A stretch of DNA of 64,000 bases from positions 1 to 64,000 of the IMG/VR virus record IMGVR_UViG_3300032220_001630. One strand, written 5' to 3'. Numbering within the stretch: the stretch's first letter is position 1; every line of letters begins with the position of its first letter. This DNA comes from a virus. Shown piece after piece: positions 1 to 32,060 of this stretch. The notes beneath the pieces are model-generated. The model searched no databases and was not told where the DNA came from. It saw nothing but the letters and a program-made list of their open reading frames with translations. The position numbers and the translations under genes are program-made.

Positions 1-405
1 GTTGATAAAAACCCAGGTGTAATGGAACAGAAGTATAAATTCTCAAAAAGAAGATATGCAGGTGGAGCAGTTGATGACACTGGTGTAAAAGTTAGAATTG
101 AATTCGAAACTAACTTAGATGATAACAACAGTAACTACGTGTTTAAGACTCTTAGACAGTGGTCAGACTTAGTTTACAATCCTCTAACAGGGGCAACAGG
201 AATTAAATCTGTCTATGCTGGAGGAACTTATATTCTTATCTCTATGTTTAATAAACAAGGGGATGTATTCAGAAGAGTTAAATTAGTTAATTGCTTCCCT
301 GTTGATCAGATAAAAGCTATGGATCTTGATTATACTAATGGAACATCACCTTATAAAATTTCATTATCATTTAGAGCAGATTATTTCGAAGATTTATTTA
401 ACTAA
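1..405 (+). CDS. Tail tube protein, gp19-like (5' end missing)
   Basis: The frame is open from the first base of the window, so the N-terminus lies upstream; an internal ATG at 22 should not be taken as the start. The visible 134 codons have the pattern of myovirus tail tube subunits: a charged beta-strand region, then a segment on a tryptophan-containing helix (LRQWSDLVYNPLTG), then alternating strands ending in a conserved-looking aromatic acidic tail (DYFEDLFN). T4 gp19 has 163 residues, so about 30 residues are probably missing. Tube subunits stack as hexameric rings inside the sheath and carry DNA into the cell. A clear rho-independent terminator follows, so this closes a transcription unit. 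The family call rests on pattern and context, not on an alignment. Confidence 0.6.
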   Translation, partial: VDKNPGVMEQKYKFSKRRYAGGAVDDTGVKVRIEFETNLDDNNSNYVFKTLRQWSDLVYNPLTGATGIKSVYAGGTYILISMFNKQGDVFRRVKLVNCFPVDQIKAMDLDYTNGTSPYKISLSFRADYFEDLFN

Positions 406-788: not shown

Positions 789-1823
789 ATGGATATGAAT
801 CAAGACGATTACTTATTGGACCAGCTGTCTAAAAAAGAATCTAAATCCCAGTTTGAATATGACAAGGATGTAAGTGATTATAAGATTCCTGATTGGATCC
901 CAAATTCACAAGGAAATAATCAATCTACTCCTAACCCCGTTAATAACCAATCAAATACTAACAGCTTAGGAAAAGCAATAAGAACCCCAATGGGTATGGA
1001 ATCAGAATGGAAAAATATTCCAGTTGAATCCCTTCCATCCAGAGGATTTGGATATCCAGAAGGATTTGAAATAGCTATTAAAGCTGCTGAAGTTAAGGAG
1101 ATTAGACAATATTCAACAGTAGATGAAGCTGATAGAATAGATCTAGACGAAAAACTAAACACCATTATATCTAAATGTATGAAGATAAGATGGAATGGTG
1201 GATTTCTAGAGCATTATGATTTATGGTACGAAGATAGATTTTTCGTGATAATGTCAATAAGAGATTTAACTTTTATTAAAGGAGAGAATAGAATACTTCT
1301 TCCAGTCACTAAAAATTGCTCTAAACCTGACTGCGAAATAGCAGATCAGATAGAATTAAAAGCTAATCTTTTAGATAGCTTTGTAATGGAGGATGAAATA
1401 CTAAAAAGATACAGTAGAGACACATTCTCTTTTAAATTTGTTCCTAAGGATGGAAGTCCGGAAATGAATCTTTACATTCCTACAGTTGGTGTGACTACTG
1501 TATGCAGAAAAATAATAAAAGACAAGAAAGAAAAAGGTAAAAAATTCGATGAGAGTTTTGCAAATATTGCAACCTTTATTATACCAGACTGGAGAGGTCT
1601 AGATGAAAGAACATATGATCAATATGAGAGAGCATCTAATGAATGGACTCCGCTACAATTCTCAATCGCAGATCAGATAAGTTCAAAGATCAACTTTGCA
1701 ACTAAATCAAGAATTTATAGTAAATGTAATAGCTGTGGTGGGGAGGTCACAGCACAAATATCATTTCCCAGAGGGTACAGATCTCTTTTCGTTATTTCAG
1801 ATATCTTTAGCCAATTACTTTGA
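789..1823 (+). CDS. Baseplate hub / tail chaperone-like protein, gp26 family (zero-frame product)
   Basis: The 344-residue zero-frame product has a disordered, Asn/Pro/Ser-rich first 70 residues. It then has LPSRGFGYP (residues 82-90) and an acidic helical segment, as in the T4 baseplate family that includes gp26, and near the end a CNSC pair (313-316). T4 gp26 is 208 residues, so this version has a long N-terminal addition. Just after the CxxC, the frame continues into an ill-fitting 16-residue tail, while the +1 frame continues with a well-formed helical domain and has no ATG or GTG of its own. I therefore read the main long product as a frameshift fusion of about 403 residues. Function as a baseplate or tail-assembly factor is inferred from the family. 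Confidence 0.55.
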   Translation: MDMNQDDYLLDQLSKKESKSQFEYDKDVSDYKIPDWIPNSQGNNQSTPNPVNNQSNTNSLGKAIRTPMGMESEWKNIPVESLPSRGFGYPEGFEIAIKAAEVKEIRQYSTVDEADRIDLDEKLNTIISKCMKIRWNGGFLEHYDLWYEDRFFVIMSIRDLTFIKGENRILLPVTKNCSKPDCEIADQIELKANLLDSFVMEDEILKRYSRDTFSFKFVPKDGSPEMNLYIPTVGVTTVCRKIIKDKKEKGKKFDESFANIATFIIPDWRGLDERTYDQYERASNEWTPLQFSIADQISSKINFATKSRIYSKCNSCGGEVTAQISFPRGYRSLFVISDIFSQLL

Positions 1824-2001
1824 TATTAAATTCCGTCTATGGGAAGAATATAAGCTATCTATTGACTCATTAGAGAAACTTCCATTCTATGAATATCAGT
1901 TGTTTATAGACAAATTAAACGAGAAAATAGAAGCGGAAAATAAAAAGAATGCTCAAGGAGATCTAGTTGAAGCTTTCTCATTTTCAAAACCAAAAATATA
2001 A
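1771..2001 (+). CDS. Probable +1 frameshift extension of the gp26-like gene
   Basis: The +1 frame stays open from before 1696 to 2001. It encodes a compact domain (DLFSLFQISLANYFDIKFRLW and onward through LEKLPFYEYQLFIDKLNEKIE). The only start-like codon in this frame is a TTG at 1696, with no leader signal, and translation from there would replace the CNSC segment by unrelated sequence. A +1 slip at TTT CCC AGA (1764-1772) moves a prolyl-tRNA from CCC to CCA and joins ...QISFP directly to EGTDLF. The fusion would add 76 residues after residue 327. Tail-assembly genes of many phages use frameshifting to make a short and a long product. A sequencing or real indel error is the main alternative. 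Confidence 0.6.
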   Translation, partial: EGTDLFSLFQISLANYFDIKFRLWEEYKLSIDSLEKLPFYEYQLFIDKLNEKIEAENKKNAQGDLVEAFSFSKPKI

Positions 2002-2038: not shown

Positions 2039-3799
2039 TTGGCTGACGAAAAGGAATTCCCAATTTTTAAATCAGAAGGTGAAGCTTTTGATAGGGCTAA
2101 AATAAACCAAGAAGTAAACTCTGGTAATACAGGAGCAATCACCAGAGAGATTGGTGATGCAATGAGAGACGCAGACTCTGTATCTAAGGAGGCCAAAAAA
2201 TTCTACGATCAATCTTTTAATGAAGATATAAAAGCTTTAGATCCCGCATACGATCCCAATTCTATTTACTATACTTCAGCATATTCAAATCAGGGATCTG
2301 ATAAAAAGAATATAGAAAAAAGAATAGAAAAAGGTGAGGCAGTAGACGGTAAGGAAATAGTAGACATGGCACAAAAAGCAGCCTATAATAAGGTTGAAAA
2401 TGCCAAGGTATTAAAAACTGGTACTGTAACAAAAATAGTAGAGAATATAGGAGCACGCCAAATAAAAGATATGGAAGCTTTCGAAGACGTAAAAAGCGAA
2501 TTCGACTCTAAAATAAAATCTGAAAAATATAATTTTGATAAGCTATTTAGTTCACTATATAGTATTCTGAATGAAATAAATAATCCTGGCCCAACTGGTG
2601 TTCCGTCTGGTGTTTTTACACCAGAGAATAATGCGATTATATCTGCCCTAGCTAAAATACTAGAGAAAGAAGGTTTTGACAGCGAGAGTGTTAAGGCTAT
2701 GTCTGCTAAGTATGATGAAAACACCACTAAATTAACAGAGAAAGTAGGGGGATCTATAGAAAAAGCTGGGGAGGAGAAAAAGACAGAGGAGAAAAAATCT
2801 GAAGCAGGCGTTACCGGTGCAGAACAAAAATTAGAATCTAAAAATGAAAATGCTGCTAGTGCAACAGGAGCAACAGGAGCAGCTATAGAATCGGCACCAA
2901 AAACCACTGCAGAATCTCCAGTAGAAGGTGCAAAAACTGAGGTGGGTGAAACTAAAGTAGGTGAAAATGCGACCGGTGCATCTGCAACTGGTGCACAATC
3001 TCAATTACTTAATAAAGAAGGGGGTACAGGGGATAAATCTGGAGCTACCGGCATAGAGGGAAGCAAAAACGAATCAGAGATGATAAGAGGTTCTCAAGCA
3101 GGTGCGGATTTCCTAAAAGAAATGTTCGGGGGTATTCTTGGTCTATCTGAAGCAGGCGGAACTGGAGAAGCACAAAAGCTGGAAAGTAGAGGGGTAGAGC
3201 TAGCAAAAGGTATAGTAGGTGATAAAAGTGAAACGGGATCAACTGGGGGATCAACTGGGGGAGGTCCAGAGAAATTAGAATCAAAGACTGAGATAAAAAC
3301 TGAAACAAAGGCTGGTGAAAATAAAGAGGGTCCAAAATCCATAGAATCTAACAATACATCGATTACCTCTGATAAAACAGGTTCAAATAATCCAACTAAC
3401 CCAGAGAATGTTTCAACTGTAGAAAAAATTCAAGAAAAAGTTGGGGCTTCCCCTGAAACTTTTGCAAAATCGGAAGGTATAAAAGAAACCGTTACCCAAA
3501 AGCTGAGTAGTTCAATTTCTCCGGAGAAGGTATCTAACGAGAAACCAAACCAACCAACTACAAGTACGGTAGGAGAAGATAATTCTTCCCAAGCAAAAAC
3601 TGAAAATTCTACTACACAGGAAGGTGGAGCAGGAACAGAAAAAAAAGAGGAGCCTAGTAAATCAGGTGAATCTGAGGGAAGCAATTCGATGGAGGAACTA
3701 TCAAAGAAAATGGAAGCAATGGTAGGTCTTCTTTCACAGCTAAATGACACCCTTTCGGGTCCATTGTTAGTAACTCCGACAACAAAAAAGTTTGACTGA
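2039..3799 (+). CDS. Low-complexity structural protein with Gly-Ala-Thr-rich linker
   Basis: This 586-residue protein starts at TTG, the only start codon after an in-frame stop 15 bases upstream. Residues 1-250 are mostly helical and charged, with a short GPTGVPSG turn. Residues about 250-500 are a long disordered region rich in Gly, Ala, Thr, Ser, Glu and Lys with many GATG and ESK-type blocks. The last 60 residues form a helix (MEELSKKMEAMVGLLSQLND) ending in TPTTKKFD. The layout suggests two folded ends tethered by a flexible linker, as in tail or baseplate-associated phage proteins. It follows the gp26-like gene, so a tail role is plausible, but I do not recognise the family. Confidence 0.6.
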   Translation: MADEKEFPIFKSEGEAFDRAKINQEVNSGNTGAITREIGDAMRDADSVSKEAKKFYDQSFNEDIKALDPAYDPNSIYYTSAYSNQGSDKKNIEKRIEKGEAVDGKEIVDMAQKAAYNKVENAKVLKTGTVTKIVENIGARQIKDMEAFEDVKSEFDSKIKSEKYNFDKLFSSLYSILNEINNPGPTGVPSGVFTPENNAIISALAKILEKEGFDSESVKAMSAKYDENTTKLTEKVGGSIEKAGEEKKTEEKKSEAGVTGAEQKLESKNENAASATGATGAAIESAPKTTAESPVEGAKTEVGETKVGENATGASATGAQSQLLNKEGGTGDKSGATGIEGSKNESEMIRGSQAGADFLKEMFGGILGLSEAGGTGEAQKLESRGVELAKGIVGDKSETGSTGGSTGGGPEKLESKTEIKTETKAGENKEGPKSIESNNTSITSDKTGSNNPTNPENVSTVEKIQEKVGASPETFAKSEGIKETVTQKLSSSISPEKVSNEKPNQPTTSTVGEDNSSQAKTENSTTQEGGAGTEKKEEPSKSGESEGSNSMEELSKKMEAMVGLLSQLNDTLSGPLLVTPTTKKFD

Positions 3800-3821
3800 T
3801 GTTTACTTTTTAAAAAACATC
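3798..3821 (+). terminator. Possible weak terminator
   Basis: GATGTTT and AAACATC form a 7-bp stem around a T/A-rich 10-base loop, directly after the preceding stop and followed by the T-rich TCTTATATTT. There is no clean U-tract, so this is uncertain. Confidence 0.35.
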
Positions 3822-3824
3822 TCT

Positions 3825-3832
3825 TATATTTG
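3825..3832 (+). promoter_or_regulatory. Bacteroidota-type -7 promoter box (TATATTTG)
   Basis: TATATTTG fits the Bacteroidota primary sigma consensus TAnnTTTG, 26 bases before an ATG. A TTTA 19 bases upstream is a partial match to the TTTG -33 element. It would let the host polymerase transcribe the dCMP deaminase and sigma genes early. Confidence 0.4.
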
Positions 3833-3858
3833 TAACTAACTAAATAAAATAAATTAAA

Positions 3859-4128
3859 ATGACGAAAAATTACGAGATCACTAAGGAGCTCAGAAAGGCA
3901 TCGGTTGATTTTTTAACAACCTACGCTAACTATGGCAAATGTTTGGAAAATTTAAGTAACGAGGAAAAATCAGAATTTACAGAAGAGGAAGTCAATGAAA
4001 TCCTAAATCTGCTTGGCAGCTTCCGTCTTCGCGATGTATTCCATGTAGTAGAAAGATTTAAAGTAGAGGTTACACAACTCAAATCAGAACAAAGTGAACC
4101 CACAACTACTACAGAGCAAGCAGGATAA
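3859..4128 (+). CDS. Small helical protein, unknown function
   Basis: This is an 89-residue acidic, mostly helical protein. An N-terminal KNYEITKELRKASVDFLTTYANYG segment is followed by a Glu/Lys-rich middle and a hydrophobic helix around NEILNLLGSFRLRDVFHVV, ending in a polar Thr/Glu tail. It has an A-rich leader without Shine-Dalgarno and is the first gene after a host-like promoter box. Its last 35 bases overlap the GTG start of the dCMP deaminase, which suggests coupled translation. I do not recognise a family. Confidence 0.6.
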   Translation: MTKNYEITKELRKASVDFLTTYANYGKCLENLSNEEKSEFTEEEVNEILNLLGSFRLRDVFHVVERFKVEVTQLKSEQSEPTTTTEQAG

Positions 4129-4528
4129 AATAGATAGGTTATATTTAAGGATGGCTTCTGTATGGGCCGAAAATTCTCACTGTAAGAGAAGTAAGGTCGG
4201 TTGCTTAATAGTCAACAATAGAAGAATAATATCTGACGGATATAACGGTACACCCTCAGGCTTTCCTAATGAATGCGAGGATTGCGATAATAAAACATAC
4301 CCCATAGTTCTACACGCCGAGGCTAACGCTATAACTAAAATAGCAACCAGTACCAACACTTCAGAAGGTGCTACCTTATATGTAACTCTCTCTCCGTGTT
4401 TTGATTGCGCTAAGTTGATAATTCAGGCAGGAATAAAAAGAATTGTCTTCTCAGAGCTATACAGAAACACGGATTCATTCGAACTCTTTAAACACGCAGG
4501 AATTGAAATAAAACAACTAGAAATTTAA
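4094..4528 (+). CDS. Deoxycytidylate (dCMP) deaminase
   Basis: The enzyme converts dCMP to dUMP, feeding dTMP synthesis; T4 encodes the same activity (cd). The 144-residue product shows the zinc-dependent cytidine/dCMP deaminase signature: HAEAN (His74, catalytic Glu76) and PCFDC (Cys102, Cys105). It also has an upstream ECEDC cysteine cluster typical of dCMP deaminases. The family N-terminal pattern RMASVWAENSHC.R.KVG is intact, which requires a start upstream of the ATG at 4151. GTG at 4094 is the only suitable codon, although it overlaps the preceding gene. Length matches the family (T4 193, many phage versions about 140-150). Confidence 0.9.
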   Translation: MNPQLLQSKQDKIDRLYLRMASVWAENSHCKRSKVGCLIVNNRRIISDGYNGTPSGFPNECEDCDNKTYPIVLHAEANAITKIATSTNTSEGATLYVTLSPCFDCAKLIIQAGIKRIVFSELYRNTDSFELFKHAGIEIKQLEI

Positions 4529-4541
4529 AAAAATCAGGAAA

Positions 4542-5165
4542 ATGGCAGCAAAAAACATTCAGGAATTGGCAGAAAGCTTTATGCGGACTTCGTCAGAGAA
4601 GGATTTCGTAGAGCTTTACAAAAGAATTAAACCAGGACTTTTAAACCACTGTAAATCCATTTTGGTGGAGCAAGAAGCAGCAGAAGATGCTGTCTCAAAT
4701 ACAATGGCTAAGATCTGGACAAAAATAGCCCAGTACGATCCTCTTAGAGGAAATTTCTCAACTTGGGTTTATAATATAGCTAGGAACGAATCACTAGTTA
4801 TAAAAAAATGTGAGGATAGGTATATGCCTATCATACAAGAGATCATAAAAAATTCAGATGATAGTTCAGATGATCCGCAAATCTCTATAAATAAATTCGA
4901 AGAGGATAATTCGTTCGAGGTCACTTTCAGTAACGAGGATCAGAATGAGATGGAGGGATTATACGAGAACGTCATAGAAAAAATGAAAGGTCTTCCTGCT
5001 ATTTATAAAGATATTCTTTTCGATAGAGAAATACTAAGAATGAAATATCAGGACATAGCAGACAAGCACGGAATGAAGAAAAGAGCGATAGCAACAAGAA
5101 TAAGAAGAGCAAGATTAAAGGTGAGAGAAATGTTCCCTGGAATAAATCTTACTTTTAACGATTGA
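4542..5165 (+). CDS. ECF-like RNA polymerase sigma factor
   Basis: This 207-residue protein has the two-domain layout of ECF sigma factors. Region 2 spans about residues 20-90, with the aromatic DNA-melting segment LRGNFSTWVYNIARNES. An acidic linker follows (about 100-135), and region 4 with a helix-turn-helix is at about 150-200 (LRMKYQDIADKHGMKKRAIATRIRRARLK). It should bind host core polymerase and redirect it. It is distinct from the gp55-like sigma encoded at 11.9 kb, so the phage carries two sigma-type proteins. Position just after the dCMP deaminase and downstream of a host-type promoter box suggests early or middle expression. Its target promoters cannot be identified from this window. 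Confidence 0.8.
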   Translation: MAAKNIQELAESFMRTSSEKDFVELYKRIKPGLLNHCKSILVEQEAAEDAVSNTMAKIWTKIAQYDPLRGNFSTWVYNIARNESLVIKKCEDRYMPIIQEIIKNSDDSSDDPQISINKFEEDNSFEVTFSNEDQNEMEGLYENVIEKMKGLPAIYKDILFDREILRMKYQDIADKHGMKKRAIATRIRRARLKVREMFPGINLTFND

Positions 5166-12768: not shown

Positions 12769-13355
12769 AACCCTTTAATCAATTATTCGAAGACTACAAA
12801 CTACAAGTTTCTGGACTAACCTCTTTATCAGAGGAGTCATTTATGTTTTGGTTTAAAAATTACGTTAACCAAAAATCTGAATTTAACCCAAAAGACTTCT
12901 TAACTGGAAGAGTTTATTCTTTCGAGTATAATGACAAGATTGAAAAGAATAAAAAGTTCATAAATAAAAGACCAGTAGTATTTTTTACTGGCTTTCATAG
13001 TAAGGGAGATCAAAATTATTTTAACGGAGTAGATCTTATACTAATGCCTCCAATGATAAGAATACCTTTATTTACTAGAATACAGAGCGTTTATTCATCA
13101 CAAATAGAAAATATCATAAAGATGGATAAGCAAGGAGAAAAAAGCCAAATACAATTAAAAACAGACTATGAGGTATTGAATACAATTTTCAAAGGTATTC
13201 CATTTAAAAATGCTTATAGGTTTTGGGATCTTAAAAAAATAAGGGATGTCAAAGAAATTCCTTATGAAGAATGGACTAGAATAGTATATCTACATACGAG
13301 GTCAATTGAAGGGACCCCGATAGAAGAGATATATAATAAAAATATGCAGGTTTAA
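12765..13355 (+). CDS. Conserved-type phage protein of unknown function, between gp4 and portal
   Basis: The 196-residue product contains LTGRVYSFEYNDKIEKNKKF, a RPVVFFTGF strand and GVDLILMPPMIRIPLFTRI. This follows the pattern of an uncharacterised family in marine T4-like phages (a short linear segment, a strand, then GxNLxxLPPxxR). The N-terminus (MKPFNQLFEDYKLQVSG) resembles weakly the short targeting-like motif seen on several other proteins here. It overlaps both neighbours by one to four bases. A head-completion or end-protection role would fit its position, but the sequence does not resemble T4 gp2 or gp53. Confidence 0.6.
   Translation: MKPFNQLFEDYKLQVSGLTSLSEESFMFWFKNYVNQKSEFNPKDFLTGRVYSFEYNDKIEKNKKFINKRPVVFFTGFHSKGDQNYFNGVDLILMPPMIRIPLFTRIQSVYSSQIENIIKMDKQGEKSQIQLKTDYEVLNTIFKGIPFKNAYRFWDLKKIRDVKEIPYEEWTRIVYLHTRSIEGTPIEEIYNKNMQV
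13328..13335 (+). promoter_or_regulatory. Late promoter box GATATATA inside preceding gene
   Basis: The box is in the last codons of the upstream gene and ends 19 bases before the portal ATG, at the usual late spacing. Confidence 0.5.
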
Positions 13356-14944
13356 TGGCTGGATTTACAGATGGAAATAAAACTTTTTTTAGCTCGATAA
13401 TAGACAGCGTTAGGAAAGTTGGTAGCTTCGGGATGGCCTATGGTGATCTAGTAGTAAAAAATTCACAAGCTGTCGGTGTAACAGAAGCACAATTCTTAAA
13501 GAAAGGAGGAATAAAAGATGAGGCTTTTCTTTTTGGATTAAAAAGGTCAGATACAACTACTAAGCAATACATAGCTTATTTTGATAAGGACTTCAAAAAT
13601 AAAAGACACTATGTACAGGGATTTGCACAAAATCCAGAGATAGAGTTTATATTGGATACAGTATGTGATGAAGCAATAGTCTATGACGAGAAAAATTTCT
13701 GGGCATACTTCTCTTTCATGCAGCATGATGATGTGGATGATGACGTTGCAAAAAAAGTTCAAAAAAGATATAAAGAGATTTACAATCTCTTTGGATTTAA
13801 CCAAGACATCTTAGCTTGGCACTTATTTAGAAAATTCTTAATCGAAGGTATAATATCATTCGAAATCATATTTGACAAGAAAGGGAAAAATATCATAGGA
13901 TTTAAAGAAATAGATGCGGCTTCTTTAGTACCTACAGTTGAACAGCAGCCTGATGGATCATACGTAGATATCTGGATACAGTATCCCGATAATCCATCAC
14001 TAACAAGAAAACTTTACGATTCACAATTAATCTATATAAGTTATGCTAAAGGTGGAGGAACTTCTGCAAGAATAAGCTATATTGAAAGATTGATAAGATC
14101 TTTTAACCTCTTGAGGATAATGGAGCACACTAGAATCATCTGGAACGTGATGAATTCTTCTTTCCGTATGGCAATGACAGTTCCAATCGGTACTAAATCC
14201 CCACAAAAAGCAAAGCAAACATTAGGCGAACTTATGTCTATTTATAAAGAGGACATAAGGTTAAATACAGACAGTGGAGAATTAACAGTTGATGGGAGAC
14301 CAAAAATACAATTCTTTAAGAACTATTTAATGCCTTCATCACCAAACGGAACTCCAGATATACAGCCTTTAGCTGGCGGAGGTGATGCTAGTGCATTTTC
14401 AGATACAAAAGCTTTACAATATTTCGCTAATAAACTTAGAATAGATTCAAAAGTCCCTGCAACAAGATTTGGTAGAGACGACTCTGGATCTGAAGGTACC
14501 ATTACATTCTCTGCAGATGGATTAGATCAGGAAGAAATAAGATTTGGTAAATTTATAAACAGACTTAGATCTATTTACCAGGAGATATTAATGAAACCAC
14601 TATGGGTTCAATTCTGCTTAGATTTTCCACAGCTAAAAAATGATTATATAATTAAGTCAGAATTTGGACTAGATTATGTTAAAGAAAATATGTTCCTGGA
14701 AGCTAAGGAAATGGAGGTCATGACTGCAAGAAAGGATCAGGTTATAAAAATTCTAGGTCTTAAAGATTCAGAAGGTAAATCATACTTCAGTTTAAAATTT
14801 GCTCTCGATAGATGGTTAGGAATGACCCCTCAGGATATGTTGGATAACGAAAAAGCTAAGAAAGAAGCAGCAGAGAAAAAGAAGGAAGAGGGCAAAGAGG
14901 AAAAACCTGAAGGTGAAGGTTCTGGAGAAGAATTTAAAATATAA
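13355..14944 (+). CDS. gp20: Portal vertex protein, gp20-like, copy 1
   Basis: The 529-residue protein matches the size of T4 gp20 (524) and its landmarks: IAYFDKDF, EIEFILDTVCDEAIVYDE, ISFEIIFDKKGKNIIGFKEID, an ISYIERLIRSFNLLRIMEHTRIIWNVMNSS core helix, PIGTKSPQKAKQTLGELMSIYKED, and the C-terminal LMKPLWVQFCLDFPQLKND stem/crown segment. The last 30 residues are Lys/Glu-rich. Portal dodecamers sit at one capsid vertex, nucleate the prohead and form the DNA channel and motor docking site. Three bases after its stop begins a second, clearly homologous portal gene. Confidence 0.9.
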   Translation: MAGFTDGNKTFFSSIIDSVRKVGSFGMAYGDLVVKNSQAVGVTEAQFLKKGGIKDEAFLFGLKRSDTTTKQYIAYFDKDFKNKRHYVQGFAQNPEIEFILDTVCDEAIVYDEKNFWAYFSFMQHDDVDDDVAKKVQKRYKEIYNLFGFNQDILAWHLFRKFLIEGIISFEIIFDKKGKNIIGFKEIDAASLVPTVEQQPDGSYVDIWIQYPDNPSLTRKLYDSQLIYISYAKGGGTSARISYIERLIRSFNLLRIMEHTRIIWNVMNSSFRMAMTVPIGTKSPQKAKQTLGELMSIYKEDIRLNTDSGELTVDGRPKIQFFKNYLMPSSPNGTPDIQPLAGGGDASAFSDTKALQYFANKLRIDSKVPATRFGRDDSGSEGTITFSADGLDQEEIRFGKFINRLRSIYQEILMKPLWVQFCLDFPQLKNDYIIKSEFGLDYVKENMFLEAKEMEVMTARKDQVIKILGLKDSEGKSYFSLKFALDRWLGMTPQDMLDNEKAKKEAAEKKKEEGKEEKPEGEGSGEEFKI

Positions 14945-14947
14945 AAA

Positions 14948-16621
14948 ATGGCAGGATTCGTAGACAATTTACAAAAATTAAATCCCAATTTATCAAGAAT
15001 AATAAAGTCAATTAGCGGGCTTGGATCTTTTGGTATGGAGTACAAAGACATGGTCATTGAAGATTCCATGGCAATAGGTATTTCTGAAGCTAACCTAAGA
15101 GAAAGATTTGGCTACGGAGCAGACGACGAGGACTTTATTTACAGCATAGCTGCACAGGATTCTTCAAATAGAAAATATATTGCATATTTTGATAAGGATT
15201 ATCCAGTAAGAAGGGATTTTTTAAGAACGTTTGCACTTAATGCAGAGATAGAATACGTTTTAGATACTTTATGTGACGAAGGAATAGTTTATGACGAGAA
15301 AAATTTCTTTTGTCATCCCGCAACTATGAACATGGATCTTAAAGACGATGTTATGAAATCTTTAAGAGGTAACTTTAGAAAGCTTTATGTCCTTCACAAC
15401 TTCACAAACGGATTAACTGCTTGGCAATACTTTAGACAGCTTTTAGTTGATGGATTTTTAGCATTTGAAATAATTTATTCTAGTGACGGCAAAAATATAG
15501 TAGGATTCAAGGAATTAGATGCTACTAGTCTTACTCCTGCAGTAGAAAGAAAAGCTGACGGATCTAGAGAATCCCTTTGGTGGCAATATTACGGAGATAC
15601 AACTAGACAAAGAAAACTTTTAGATGCTCAAGTAATCTATATCTCCTATGCTAAAGCTAATACTGCAGCTAGAACTTCTTATTGTGAAAGATTAGTTAGA
15701 TCTTATAACCTTCTTAAAATAATGGAGCATTCCAGAATAATATGGAATGTAATGAATTCACAGTACAGAATAAAAATGACTGTACCAATTGGAAGTAAAT
15801 CTCCGCAAAAGGCTAAAGAAACTTTAGGCGAACTTATGTCCGTATACAAAGAGGATATAAAACTTGATACTTCATCAGGAGAACTTGCAATTAACGGAAG
15901 ACCAGATTTACAATTCTATAAAAACTATCTTTTCCCACAAAGCGGCGGTGAATCAACTAAAGTTGAGACTATAAACGCTCAAGGACCAAATCTGAATATT
16001 ATGGATTCGGTAGTTTATTTCTATAATAAATTAAGACAGGATTCTAAAATACCATATAATAGATTTTCTGCAAGATGGGGTTCAGGTAGTGCTGCAGCTT
16101 ATAAAATTCCAGCAGACGGATCAGAAAGAGACGAAGTTAGATTTGCAAAATTTATAACACGTCTAAGATCTATTTTCCAAGAAATAGTAGTAAAGCCTCT
16201 ATGGATACAAATGTGTTTAGATTTTCCACATTTAAAAAATGATTCTGAATTTAGAAGCCAAATTGGGGTTAAATTTGAGAGCGATAATACTTTTGGAGAA
16301 TCAAGAGAGATAGAGCAGCTTTTAAAACATATAGACTTCATAAATTCCTTAGGTGAAATAAAAGAAACAGTTAATGACGAAGAAGTTCAATTCTTCAATC
16401 AAGACTTCCTTATAGAAAGATGGTCAGGATTGCCATATGAAGATATAATGGCAAATAAAAAATATAAGGAAAAAGAAAAAGGTGAAGCTGCACCAGCAGA
16501 AGCTCCTGCTTCTGAAGAGACCCCAGCTGAAGAGACACCTGCTGAAACACCAGCAGAAGAAACACCAGCTGAGACCCCTGCTGAGACATCAGAGGAGGGA
16601 GGAGAAGAAACTACAACCTAA
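14948..16621 (+). CDS. gp20: Portal vertex protein, gp20-like, copy 2
   Basis: The 557-residue protein is a full-length paralogue of the preceding portal. Shared blocks run throughout, including GSFGMEYKDMVIEDSMAIGIS, IAYFDKDYPVRRDFLR, EIEYVLDTLCDEGIVYDEKNF, YCERLVRSYNLLKIMEHSRI, PIGSKSPQKAKETLGELMS and KPLWIQMCLDFPHLKND. No core segment is missing and no frame is broken, so both copies look functional. Differences concentrate in the region after DLQFYKNYLFPQ and in the C-terminus, where this copy has a Pro/Ala/Glu/Thr-rich tail of about 45 residues. The two could form a mixed ring, serve different vertices, or one could have a new function. Confidence 0.88.
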   Translation: MAGFVDNLQKLNPNLSRIIKSISGLGSFGMEYKDMVIEDSMAIGISEANLRERFGYGADDEDFIYSIAAQDSSNRKYIAYFDKDYPVRRDFLRTFALNAEIEYVLDTLCDEGIVYDEKNFFCHPATMNMDLKDDVMKSLRGNFRKLYVLHNFTNGLTAWQYFRQLLVDGFLAFEIIYSSDGKNIVGFKELDATSLTPAVERKADGSRESLWWQYYGDTTRQRKLLDAQVIYISYAKANTAARTSYCERLVRSYNLLKIMEHSRIIWNVMNSQYRIKMTVPIGSKSPQKAKETLGELMSVYKEDIKLDTSSGELAINGRPDLQFYKNYLFPQSGGESTKVETINAQGPNLNIMDSVVYFYNKLRQDSKIPYNRFSARWGSGSAAAYKIPADGSERDEVRFAKFITRLRSIFQEIVVKPLWIQMCLDFPHLKNDSEFRSQIGVKFESDNTFGESREIEQLLKHIDFINSLGEIKETVNDEEVQFFNQDFLIERWSGLPYEDIMANKKYKEKEKGEAAPAEAPASEETPAEETPAETPAEETPAETPAETSEEGGEETTT

Positions 16622-29464: not shown

Positions 29465-32060
29465 GAACATGAACGACTTGTACAAAGGTATAAACCCAAT
29501 TTACGAAAGTATGAAATCCTCAATCATGGAGGATAAAGAAAAAGGAACAGACAAGAAAGCAAAAGCCCTTGATACTGTTTCTCTTGTATCTACAGCCATG
29601 AATACTTTCTTTTCCATCCTTTTAAATTCAAAGATGGAAAATGCTAAAACGGTAAGAGGATTCCAAGAGATTAAAAACAAAATATTAGGAACTAACAATT
29701 TTGGTGCGTTCAGACAATATTTAATTTCTGTAGTAGATTCTTTAGCTGCTATGGATCCTTCACAAAAAGATGCTTACCAAAAAAATATTCAGTTCATTAC
29801 TGGTTTATTAGCAAATGTAGAGCCTCTTTTATCTGATCCAAAAATATTTGATAGCTTAAAGAAAGATACAGTTTCTAAACTAGTAAGCAACTTCGAAAAC
29901 GATCTAAAGGAAAGAGAATCTCAAATGAGAAAAACTAATCCAAAATTATTTGGTGAAGTTGTTAAGCAAGGTTTAGTTGTTAAGGAAGCTAAAAGAACAG
30001 GTGAAGAAGACAACGTAGAAGATGCAGAGTTTAGAGGTAAAGCTTTTAATAAATCCAAAGAATCATTAGATGCTTCTAGTGCTTTTGTAGGTATGATCGA
30101 TAGAGATTCATACGTTGCAGTTCTTAAAGATAACGAGGACGTAAAAAGATATAAAGAAATTGCTCAGAATCTTTACAAAAGAGCTCAAGATCTACAAATG
30201 CTAGACAGAAAGGGATTACTAAATATAGTAACACCTTCAGGAGAATATAAAAGAAAAGATTACGTAAGACAGCAAGATTCATTATTAAATGACATCATAA
30301 GACAAAAGAAAGAATACGAAAGAATTAAGGAAGGTATTCTAAAACAAGGAGGATTAACACCTCCCCCACCAGTTATTCCAGTTTGTCCTCCTGGAAAAAT
30401 ATACGATCCATCTAAAGGAATTTGTGTAAGCTCAGGAGAAACACAAGCAACAGGAGGAACCTCCGGAGGCGAAGGAGACAACAAACCAAAACCAAAAACT
30501 TCAGATTGCACATTCCCTATTTCTCTAAATACTAAATGTGCACAAGTAGGAGATATACAAAATAAATTGATGGAAGTTATTCCTTCAGTTAAAGAGTATC
30601 TTCCAAAGAAAGGTGGAGCGGATAAGGTTTACGGAAAAGGAACTGCAACTGTATCTAATATAGTTTGGGGTTACCTTTCAGGAAATACTGGACAATCTAT
30701 AACATCTCCTCTATCTAAGGAAATGTATGACGCTATCATGGCTTTAACGCCTAATGATATCGACACAACAACTGCAATGATGGCAGGAGCAGCTATTAAA
30801 GATAGCAAAAACTGGGAAATGTCAATCAGCGACAAAATACAGGAAAGAGAAGAGATTAAAGGATCTCCTATCTTATCTTTCGAAGACTTTTATTCAGTAA
30901 TAGAAGAATCCTATAACTTCGCAAAAATTGACGAGGATTCAGTATTTGATAGATTAAAAAAAGTAGCAGAGCCAGTTACAGATGTTAACAAAAAAGTAGA
31001 ACCTGCTACAACTCCATCAGGTAAGAAATTAATAGATTCTTGTATTAAAGATTCTATTGCACAAGGTAAGGTTCTTCCTTGCGTTGGTGCTACAGGAGGT
31101 ACAGGAGGTACAGGTGGTACAGGTGGTACTGGAGGTACTGGAGGTACTGGAGGTACTGGAGGTACTGGAGGTACAGGTGGTACAGGTGACGTTAAATGGA
31201 AAGGTTTAAAGCCAGTTAAAGACGGAGCTTATACAGTATACTATGATGAAAGTTGGTCAGAATGGTGGAGTGATACAGGTAAAGGAGTTATAGTAGCTGG
31301 ATTAATCGTAGGTGCTATAGTTGCTACCGCAGGAGCAGCAAGTATTGCAGTTCCAGTAGGAGGTACATTAATAGGAGCATCCTCATTAGGAGCATCTGGA
31401 TTAGCAGGAGCTGGTGCAGCTGCAGCAGGATTAGTTACAACTGGAGCAGGTGGAATCGTATTAGCTACAGGAGCTATAGGAGGTTCTGCAATAGCAAAAT
31501 GGGCAGGTGATGATAGAAAACCTGCTACAATCTTAGTATTTAACGGATATATTGAAAGCGTGGCTGTTAAAGCAATGGCTAGAGGATTATACAATAGCTT
31601 AACTGGTACAGTTTCATCACAAGATCTTTTAGCTATCTTCTCTACATTAATTCTTTGTAGAGGAACTTATACAGAAGGTCCAGATGGTAAAGCAATTTCA
31701 GTATGGGAAAAAGTTAAGAAGGATTACTCTGCATTCGGAGGTGAAGATCTATCTTATGATATCAAGGATATCACTAGTGGAGGTGTTGGTGGATTCTTTA
31801 AAGACGTAGTTACAGATATGGACGAAATTCCAGGATTCCCTACTAGCTTTAAAACTAAAGATCCAACAAACGGAGGTCCTACAACATTCGAATCAGCAAA
31901 AGATGCTTGCGACGAAGCAGTAGGTAAACTTAATGGCAACGTAACTAAAATGGCAGAAAATCTGCAAAATATTACAGAAGAAGATTTAGAGGTTCTTTCA
32001 GAAAGTATGGGTGAACTCACAGAAGGGGTAGCTAAAGAAGCAGGGGAATCTGAAGAGTAA
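29457..32060 (+). CDS. Large candidate head-internal or ejected protein with Gly-Thr repeat linker and membrane segment
   Basis: This 867-residue protein has a helical N-terminal half (1-290) and a Pro-rich turn (LTPPPPVIPVCPPGK). A Gly-rich linker and a domain around residues 345-440 resembling a peptidoglycan-binding helical fold come next (CTFPISLNTKCAQVGDIQNK). At 469-486 there is an internal ILSFEDFYSVIEES motif like the N-terminal motifs of neighbours. After a (TGG)n linker (545-577) comes a hydrophobic Gly/Ala stretch (about 605-685) able to span a membrane, then a C-terminal soluble domain. The layout suits a protein packaged in the head and delivered across the envelope. Neither function nor location is proven. 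Confidence 0.6.
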   Translation: MNKNMNDLYKGINPIYESMKSSIMEDKEKGTDKKAKALDTVSLVSTAMNTFFSILLNSKMENAKTVRGFQEIKNKILGTNNFGAFRQYLISVVDSLAAMDPSQKDAYQKNIQFITGLLANVEPLLSDPKIFDSLKKDTVSKLVSNFENDLKERESQMRKTNPKLFGEVVKQGLVVKEAKRTGEEDNVEDAEFRGKAFNKSKESLDASSAFVGMIDRDSYVAVLKDNEDVKRYKEIAQNLYKRAQDLQMLDRKGLLNIVTPSGEYKRKDYVRQQDSLLNDIIRQKKEYERIKEGILKQGGLTPPPPVIPVCPPGKIYDPSKGICVSSGETQATGGTSGGEGDNKPKPKTSDCTFPISLNTKCAQVGDIQNKLMEVIPSVKEYLPKKGGADKVYGKGTATVSNIVWGYLSGNTGQSITSPLSKEMYDAIMALTPNDIDTTTAMMAGAAIKDSKNWEMSISDKIQEREEIKGSPILSFEDFYSVIEESYNFAKIDEDSVFDRLKKVAEPVTDVNKKVEPATTPSGKKLIDSCIKDSIAQGKVLPCVGATGGTGGTGGTGGTGGTGGTGGTGGTGGTGGTGDVKWKGLKPVKDGAYTVYYDESWSEWWSDTGKGVIVAGLIVGAIVATAGAASIAVPVGGTLIGASSLGASGLAGAGAAAAGLVTTGAGGIVLATGAIGGSAIAKWAGDDRKPATILVFNGYIESVAVKAMARGLYNSLTGTVSSQDLLAIFSTLILCRGTYTEGPDGKAISVWEKVKKDYSAFGGEDLSYDIKDITSGGVGGFFKDVVTDMDEIPGFPTSFKTKDPTNGGPTTFESAKDACDEAVGKLNGNVTKMAENLQNITEEDLEVLSESMGELTEGVAKEAGESEE
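31090..31189 (+). repeat. Tandem 9-bp repeat GGTACWGGW
   Basis: About ten in-frame copies of GGTACTGGA / GGTACAGGT code for a (Gly-Thr-Gly)n linker. The near-identity of copies indicates a slippage-prone, length-variable tract. Confidence 0.85.

Follow-up and report, generated by a model that had tools for sequence, protein, structure and literature searches.

The question raised by this locus is how a gp26-like phage gene is related to a second protein domain that follows it in a different reading frame: whether the two are expressed as separate proteins, or whether some of the ribosomes translating the first slip forward by one base and so join the second to it. The window analysed here is a 64,000-nt stretch of viral DNA (positions 1 to 64,000 of IMG/VR record IMGVR_UViG_3300032220_001630), for which an earlier note, made from the letters alone, had proposed a +1 programmed frameshift at TTT CCC AGA. 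The reading put forward below, very probable when taken as a whole, is that one start codon would give two proteins by a +1 shift at UUU_CCC, and that the pair would be the counterpart of lambda gpG/gpGT.

The locus and its neighbours

The zero-frame open reading frame (ORF), as read from the sequence, runs from 789 to 1823 (344 aa) and its end reads CNSC...FPRGYRSLFVISDIFSQLL, while the +1 frame, already open upstream, stays so until a TAA at 1999-2001. Joining the two frames at TTT CCC A (1764-1770), with CCCA at 1767 taken as a single step, gives a protein of 403 aa, the length that had been predicted for the long form. The features referred to below are these:

22..405, + strand: C-terminal part of the tail tube protein, the upstream neighbour (phrog_3629 tail tube, E 1.8e-5; phrog_45 tail tube, E 1.7e-4)
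789..1823, + strand: gp26-like gene, short form of 344 aa, with a zinc-ribbon-like CxxC near the C-terminus (phrog_36717, E 9e-15; profile match to the T4 gp26/gp51N family, PF12322 members, E 2.7e-6)
789..2001, + strand: putative long form after the +1 shift, 403 aa (joined translation; predicted fold)
1742..1748, + strand: GGAGGTC, a Shine-Dalgarno (SD)-like candidate cis element, its GGAGGT ending 16 nt before the slip codon (fixed spacing, fixed rare codons)
1764..1769, + strand: TTT CCC, the proposed slip site, where tRNAPhe in the P site would shift from UUU to UUC while the A site holds the rare CCC (TTT_C in 89 of 92 unique protein-selected relatives)
1771..1820, + strand: dual-coded stretch, the zero frame giving the tail of the short form and the +1 frame the start of the gp51 domain (zero-frame third positions nearly fixed, unlike upstream)
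1771..2001, + strand: gp51-type domain in the +1 frame (the 'T' part of the long form) and its stop codon (phrog_634, E 2.6e-6; profile match to cyanophage/T4 gp51, E 1.7e-8)
2039-3799: 586-aa Ser/Thr/Gly/Glu-rich ORF with a TTG start, directly 3' of the frameshift gene (no family match)

The last of these is possibly a tape measure or assembly protein; no tape measure gene beside the locus was identified in the window, nor were any tRNA genes found there. Portal, head protease and major head proteins of T4 type are encoded in the same window, which places the phage in the T4 superfamily, broadly understood; its relatives include phages of 460-735 kb and Lak phages, together with isolates from Chryseobacterium, Flavobacterium and Tenacibaculum. 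Two adjacent ORFs (13355-14944, 529 aa, and 14948-16621, 557 aa) form a tandem portal-like pair, both matching the T4-type portal family phrog_213 (E 1.6e-56 and 1.5e-57).

Conservation of the +1 frame

Relatives of the locus were gathered in two ways, by protein search and, separately, by DNA pattern, and the frame relation was scored at all loci by means of profiles for each of the two parts. In every one of the 272 window-type loci with a detectable gp51 domain (and in 265/265 of those with full flank) the domain lies in the +1 frame, with no case of a fusion or of any other frame; since many of the loci are closely related to one another, such counts do not represent independent events. 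The arrangement recurs at 194 unique junctions, drawn from many samples, and is present in the isolates PAU, PTm1, MA9V and MaF61. Outside the T4-type phages, neither an unbroken frame nor a clearly separate, full-length second gene was seen. The pattern GGAGGTC-N15-TTTCCC-NNN-GG picked out at least 120 stretches, and 118 of the 120 listed hold a gp26-like gene; because these loci were selected by that very pattern, they were left out of the cis-element counts given further on.

Past the zero-frame stop, one-base codon differences within the window's group number 6652 synonymous against 1647 nonsynonymous in the +1 frame, as compared with 992 against 8197 in the −1 frame; for a second group, that of locus L067, the +1 figures are 19132 and 6211. 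Judged by these codon differences, the +1 frame after the zero-frame stop is under strong purifying selection and the other frames are not. Taken with the constancy of the frame relation, this makes it almost certain that a conserved +1 programmed frameshift operates at the locus, much as had been proposed.

A few relatives deserve separate mention. The Lak phages (L064 and L065, about 3600-4180) have the same +1 arrangement with TTT CAA, and the +1 domain of Lak-B5 holds an in-frame TAG, which fits the TAG-recoded genomes of Lak phages. In the Chryseobacterium phages MA9V-2 (L068) and MA9V-1 (L070), at about 4680-4780, the +1 domain is kept while GGAGGT and a homologous TTT_C are absent. Flavobacterium phage MaF61 (L071) has an ATG-started +1 ORF at 4833-5003, overlapping the end of its gp26-like gene; the conserved domain begins upstream of that ATG, beside TTT CGA, and both routes, frameshift and separate start, may therefore be in use in this phage.

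Identity of the two protein parts

The +1 part matches phrog_634, the 'baseplate hub assembly catalyst' or T4 gp51 family (E 2.6e-6), and when the whole 103-kb contig was searched with phrog_634 a single place was found, at 1771-1956 (E 1.1e-7), directly after the slip site. A profile of the +1 domain matches the cyanophage/T4 gp51 profile at 30% identity (E 1.7e-8, nominal, as are all E-values here from single profile comparisons), with the +1 peptide LFSLFQ aligned to EIFTFYQ of T4 gp51. By these matches the second domain, of about 75 aa, is the C-terminal domain of T4 gp51.

The identity of the zero-frame part rests on profile comparison and on fold. Combined with its relatives into a profile, it can be aligned over almost its whole length with T4 gp26, with residues 1-200 of T4 gp51 and with cyanophage gp26; in hhalign the body matches the T4 gp26/PF12322 family with a probability of 88.5 over 215 columns and with the same C-terminus (nominal E 2.7e-6). 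A direct Pfam search with the window protein gave no match, while T4 gp26, gp51 and cyanophage gp26 all match PF12322. The long form is predicted to fold with a mean pLDDT of 79.8 and with C-terminal helices at 340-354, 358-362 and 366-389; the nearest folds include those of close relatives (PAU gp93-type and Tenacibaculum phage proteins), followed by T4-type baseplate hub proteins, and a search against solved structures returned no match. The 344-aa gene is on this basis a distant homologue of T4 gp26. Its zero-frame tail, which the earlier note had called poor, turns out to be conserved across the window's group and to correspond to the end of T4 gp26.

T4, cyanophages and the role of the pair

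T4 gp26 and residues 1-201 of gp51 both match PF12322, gp51 147-246 also matches phrog_634, and the two proteins match each other directly (nominal profile E 2e-6). As far as these comparisons go, T4 gp26 and gp51 are paralogues, gp51 being a gp26 body with an extra domain; full-length gp51 is carried by 1334 phage records, and the annotation of Klebsiella phage Matisse already puts gp26 and gp51 in one family. T4 thus has homologues of both parts of the present gene (a PF12322-family body and a gp51 C-terminal domain), both of its proteins being assembly factors, but each of the two is encoded there by a full gene of its own, on opposite strands, and the gp51 domain is read in frame with no frameshift.

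A third arrangement is found in cyanophages and their like, where the same two parts lie in the same order and the domain is again out of frame, but in the −1 frame (92 of 92 cyanophage-type loci). At 60 unique marine loci the end of gp26 carries a codon-aligned heptamer, T TTT TTC or T TTT TTT, placed 7-10 nt ahead of the stop of that gene, with the gp51 domain following in −1; T TTT TTY with a −1 gp51 domain is present also in the isolates S-PM2, ACG-2014e, HTVC008M and Sf-FP1, vibriophage nt-1 and Pseudomonas phage Milchi, and the part of the Rhizobium phage RL38J1 genome that was examined has the same look. We infer from these sequences that cyanophages, pelagiphages and KVP40-type vibriophages would join both parts by a −1 shift at T TTT TTY, as against +1 at TTT_C here. 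None of the six −1-type records examined annotates slippage, gp51 being given as a separate gene or omitted; and the cyanophage gp51 without its first ~200 residues that Sullivan et al. described (PMC3037559) would be explained by frameshifting. The expectation that such recoding would prove little described in T4-like phages is borne out, in that no report of gp26-gp51 frameshifting was found in the open-access journal literature searched.

As to function, adjacency to the tail tube gene, the design of a shared body with an extra domain, and homology to T4 gp26/gp51 together argue that the pair is the counterpart of lambda gpG/gpGT, and a G/GT-type role seems probable, in keeping with the tail-assembly role suggested earlier for what was rightly taken to be a T4-related phage. 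On the comparative evidence, the locus would make short and long forms that share an N-terminus through programmed frameshifting, as chaperones of the G/GT type do. As in lambda, there would be one start, a C-terminal domain added by a rare frameshift, and a gene beside that for the tail tube; unlike lambda, the protein family is different as far as can be detected, the shift is +1 rather than −1, and the products, at 344 and 403 aa, are longer. A proposed precedent among myoviruses is halovirus HSTV-2, with a probable +1 tail-chaperone shift (PMC5009743), though that is an archaeal virus.

It is possible, but a good deal less likely, that the frameshift is real and that the pair are simply gp26/gp51 hub-assembly factors, with a role unrelated to that of tape-measure chaperones. 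T4 gp51 and gp26 have been classed as hub assembly chaperones (PMC3004832), and lambda gpG-type chaperones were not matched above noise in either sequence or fold, annotated tail assembly chaperones appearing only at sub-threshold fold scores (E 0.65 and 2.0). What speaks for the G/GT-type role is that both the short/long design and the site next to the tail tube are the same, and that in HTVC008M the pair lies one ORF before a putative tape measure gene, the order as annotated being tail tube - 26 - 51 - ORF - putative tape measure. T4 itself would then resemble phage 0305phi8-36, where a paralogous pair has been proposed to replace a frameshift-made G/GT (PMC2147016); that phage is of a different lineage, however, and frameshifted relatives were not part of that proposal.

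The proposed slip site

Among unique protein-selected junctions, 89 of 92 show a TTT with C as its next base in the expected range, the unit being TTTCCC in 82, TTTCAA in four (one of which, in Tenacibaculum PTm1, lies away from the homologous place), TTTCCT in two and TTTCGA in one; the Chryseobacterium phages and LR756504 have no TTT_C at the homologous place. In many pattern-found stretches, and at locus L004, a +1 stop codon directly precedes the TTT, which places the shift at TTT or later and not earlier. The A-site codon CCC is invariant in the window and L067 groups (80/80), as against 7.6% of proline codons in the window, where it accounts for 42 of 15,565 codons in all. For some 50-60 nt after the slip the zero-frame third positions are nearly frozen, as dual coding predicts.

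Most ribosomes would thus terminate at 1821, giving the 344-aa gp26-type protein, while a minority would shift to the +1 frame on UUU_CCC (1764), so extending the product by the gp51-type domain. Rare CCC would leave the A site empty for long enough for peptidyl-tRNAPhe to re-pair from UUU to UUC, perhaps with assistance from the GGAGGTC upstream. The short chaperone would then be plentiful and the long one scarce, with the added domain of the latter probably serving to bring in a second component of the tail. Comparison establishes the +1 domain and its conservation, together with the cis elements and the family links; the shifting itself, its efficiency, the slipping tRNA, the chaperone role and any role for GGAGGTC we infer.

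UUU_C is, on balance, the favoured slip unit. A close parallel is PA-X of influenza A, where a reference cited in PMC5009743 describes re-pairing of P-site tRNAPhe at UUU_CGU: both sites have UUU then C, a move of P-site tRNAPhe to UUC, and a slow next codon, although the CAA and CCT lineages here are without a rare codon. The same frameshift could instead be made by a proline tRNA slipping from CCC to CCA or CCG, in the manner of Listeria phage PSA, and this was the mechanism first proposed. It is compatible with the invariant CCC of the two main groups and yields an identical product, so that protein sequence cannot tell it from a tRNAPhe slip. It would, however, need wobble-base re-pairing in the many relatives where CCC moves to CCG, and it is impossible in lineages with TTT CAA, TTT CCT or TTT CGA, which rule it out as a universal mechanism; P-site tRNAPhe is favoured because only UUU to UUC works in all TTT_C lineages. 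Proline slippage must accordingly be considered improbable, its scope being confined to relatives with CCC, and of the original proposal TTT CCC stands as the site while the CCC-to-CCA step most likely gives way to a slip by tRNAPhe. The PSA analogy likewise holds for the direction of the shift, though not for its setting, the PSA sites being in capsid and tail-shaft genes (PMC5009743).

Other slip points fare worse. GGGG at 1740-1743, suggested earlier as a second candidate, is rejected: it is followed by +1 stops in relatives (in several of which one abuts the TTT, so that any earlier shift would end in termination), varies in its base run, and overlaps the start of the conserved GGAGGTC. 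A later slip at CTT TTC is disfavoured by the alignment of the surrounding +1 peptide with T4 gp51, there being no overlap at that point. Transcriptional slippage is disfavoured by homopolymers that mostly reach only 4, and as for RNA structure acting as stimulator, three weak pairs without covariation were all that was found at the junction.

The GGAGGTC element presents a different problem. The distance from its GGAGGT to TTT is exactly 16 nt in 77 of the 89 unique protein-selected relatives with TTT_C, and its codons are fixed (GTC in 73/74 against 7% usage, GGG in 30/30 against 8%), while synonymous codons drift freely between GGAGGTC and TTTCCC. In prfB an SD-like element likewise stands upstream of a +1 site, but there it is 3 nt from the slip codon, with a stop codon in the A site; the present GGAGGT, 16 nt away and with the sense codon CCC in the A site, is not of that SD-stimulated type. 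According to the accounts in PMC9976891 and PMC8710568, Bacteroidia ribosomes usually occlude the anti-SD; prfB frameshift sites are nevertheless common in Bacteroidia, and in the clade of the Chryseobacterium hosts the anti-SD is altered and prfB has no frameshift (PMC8710568). That GGAGGTC at its fixed 16 nt should be a working stimulator, pairing with 16S rRNA in hosts that normally hide the anti-SD, must be thought doubtful. The absence of GGAGGT from the Chryseobacterium phages, whose hosts have the altered anti-SD, fits the prediction, although as one lineage it is suggestive only. If the element does act in this way, the ratio of long to short form would follow the state of the ribosomes, for example the presence of bS21-free ribosomes. 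Elsewhere in the window GGAGGT is plentiful on the + strand (30 occurrences against about 8 expected from composition, and 7 on the minus strand), being concentrated especially at 31095-31872 with a tandem cluster at 31095-31167.

Explanations without a frameshift

The gp51 domain might alternatively be a separate protein started inside gene 26, at a GTG near 1735 or by reinitiation. The +1 frame had been described as having no ATG or GTG, which is incorrect, as there is GTG GTG at 1735-1740 (and TTG at 1696); most relatives have a +1-frame GTG some 26-29 nt before the slip, and public annotations show a small downstream ORF starting in mid-domain. That GTG is, however, a by-product of a conserved Cys-Gly in the zero frame, and a +1 stop separates it from the slip in 26 of 191 unique junctions, 21 of these 26 having no ATG, GTG or TTG before the conserved domain. 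The annotated mid-domain starts would cut into the conserved LFSLFQ part, and GGAGGTC comes after the GTG rather than before it. An internal start is therefore very unlikely. As for an assembly or sequencing indel, or a decayed gene, the window is indeed a single metagenomic contig, but the same +1 arrangement in so many unique junctions and in isolates, with selection on both frames, refutes this and leaves it practically no probability.

Significance

If the frameshift operates as these comparisons indicate, a large group of phages infecting Bacteroidota-type hosts would make a longer tail-building protein by a +1 slip, at a site accompanied by an unusual, strictly spaced SD-like element, and this in phages of SD-avoiding hosts. 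This would also put right many annotations that lack gp51 or give it in truncated form. More broadly, the sequences suggest that the T4 superfamily may have a G/GT-type system in three forms: by +1 shift, by −1 shift and by gene duplication. Atkins et al., in their 2016 review, describe G-GT frameshifting as conserved 'except T4' (PMC5009743); the three-form reading would remove T4 as the named exception to a frameshift-made tail chaperone, and would provide a testable model for T4 gp26 and gp51, whose roles are disputed.
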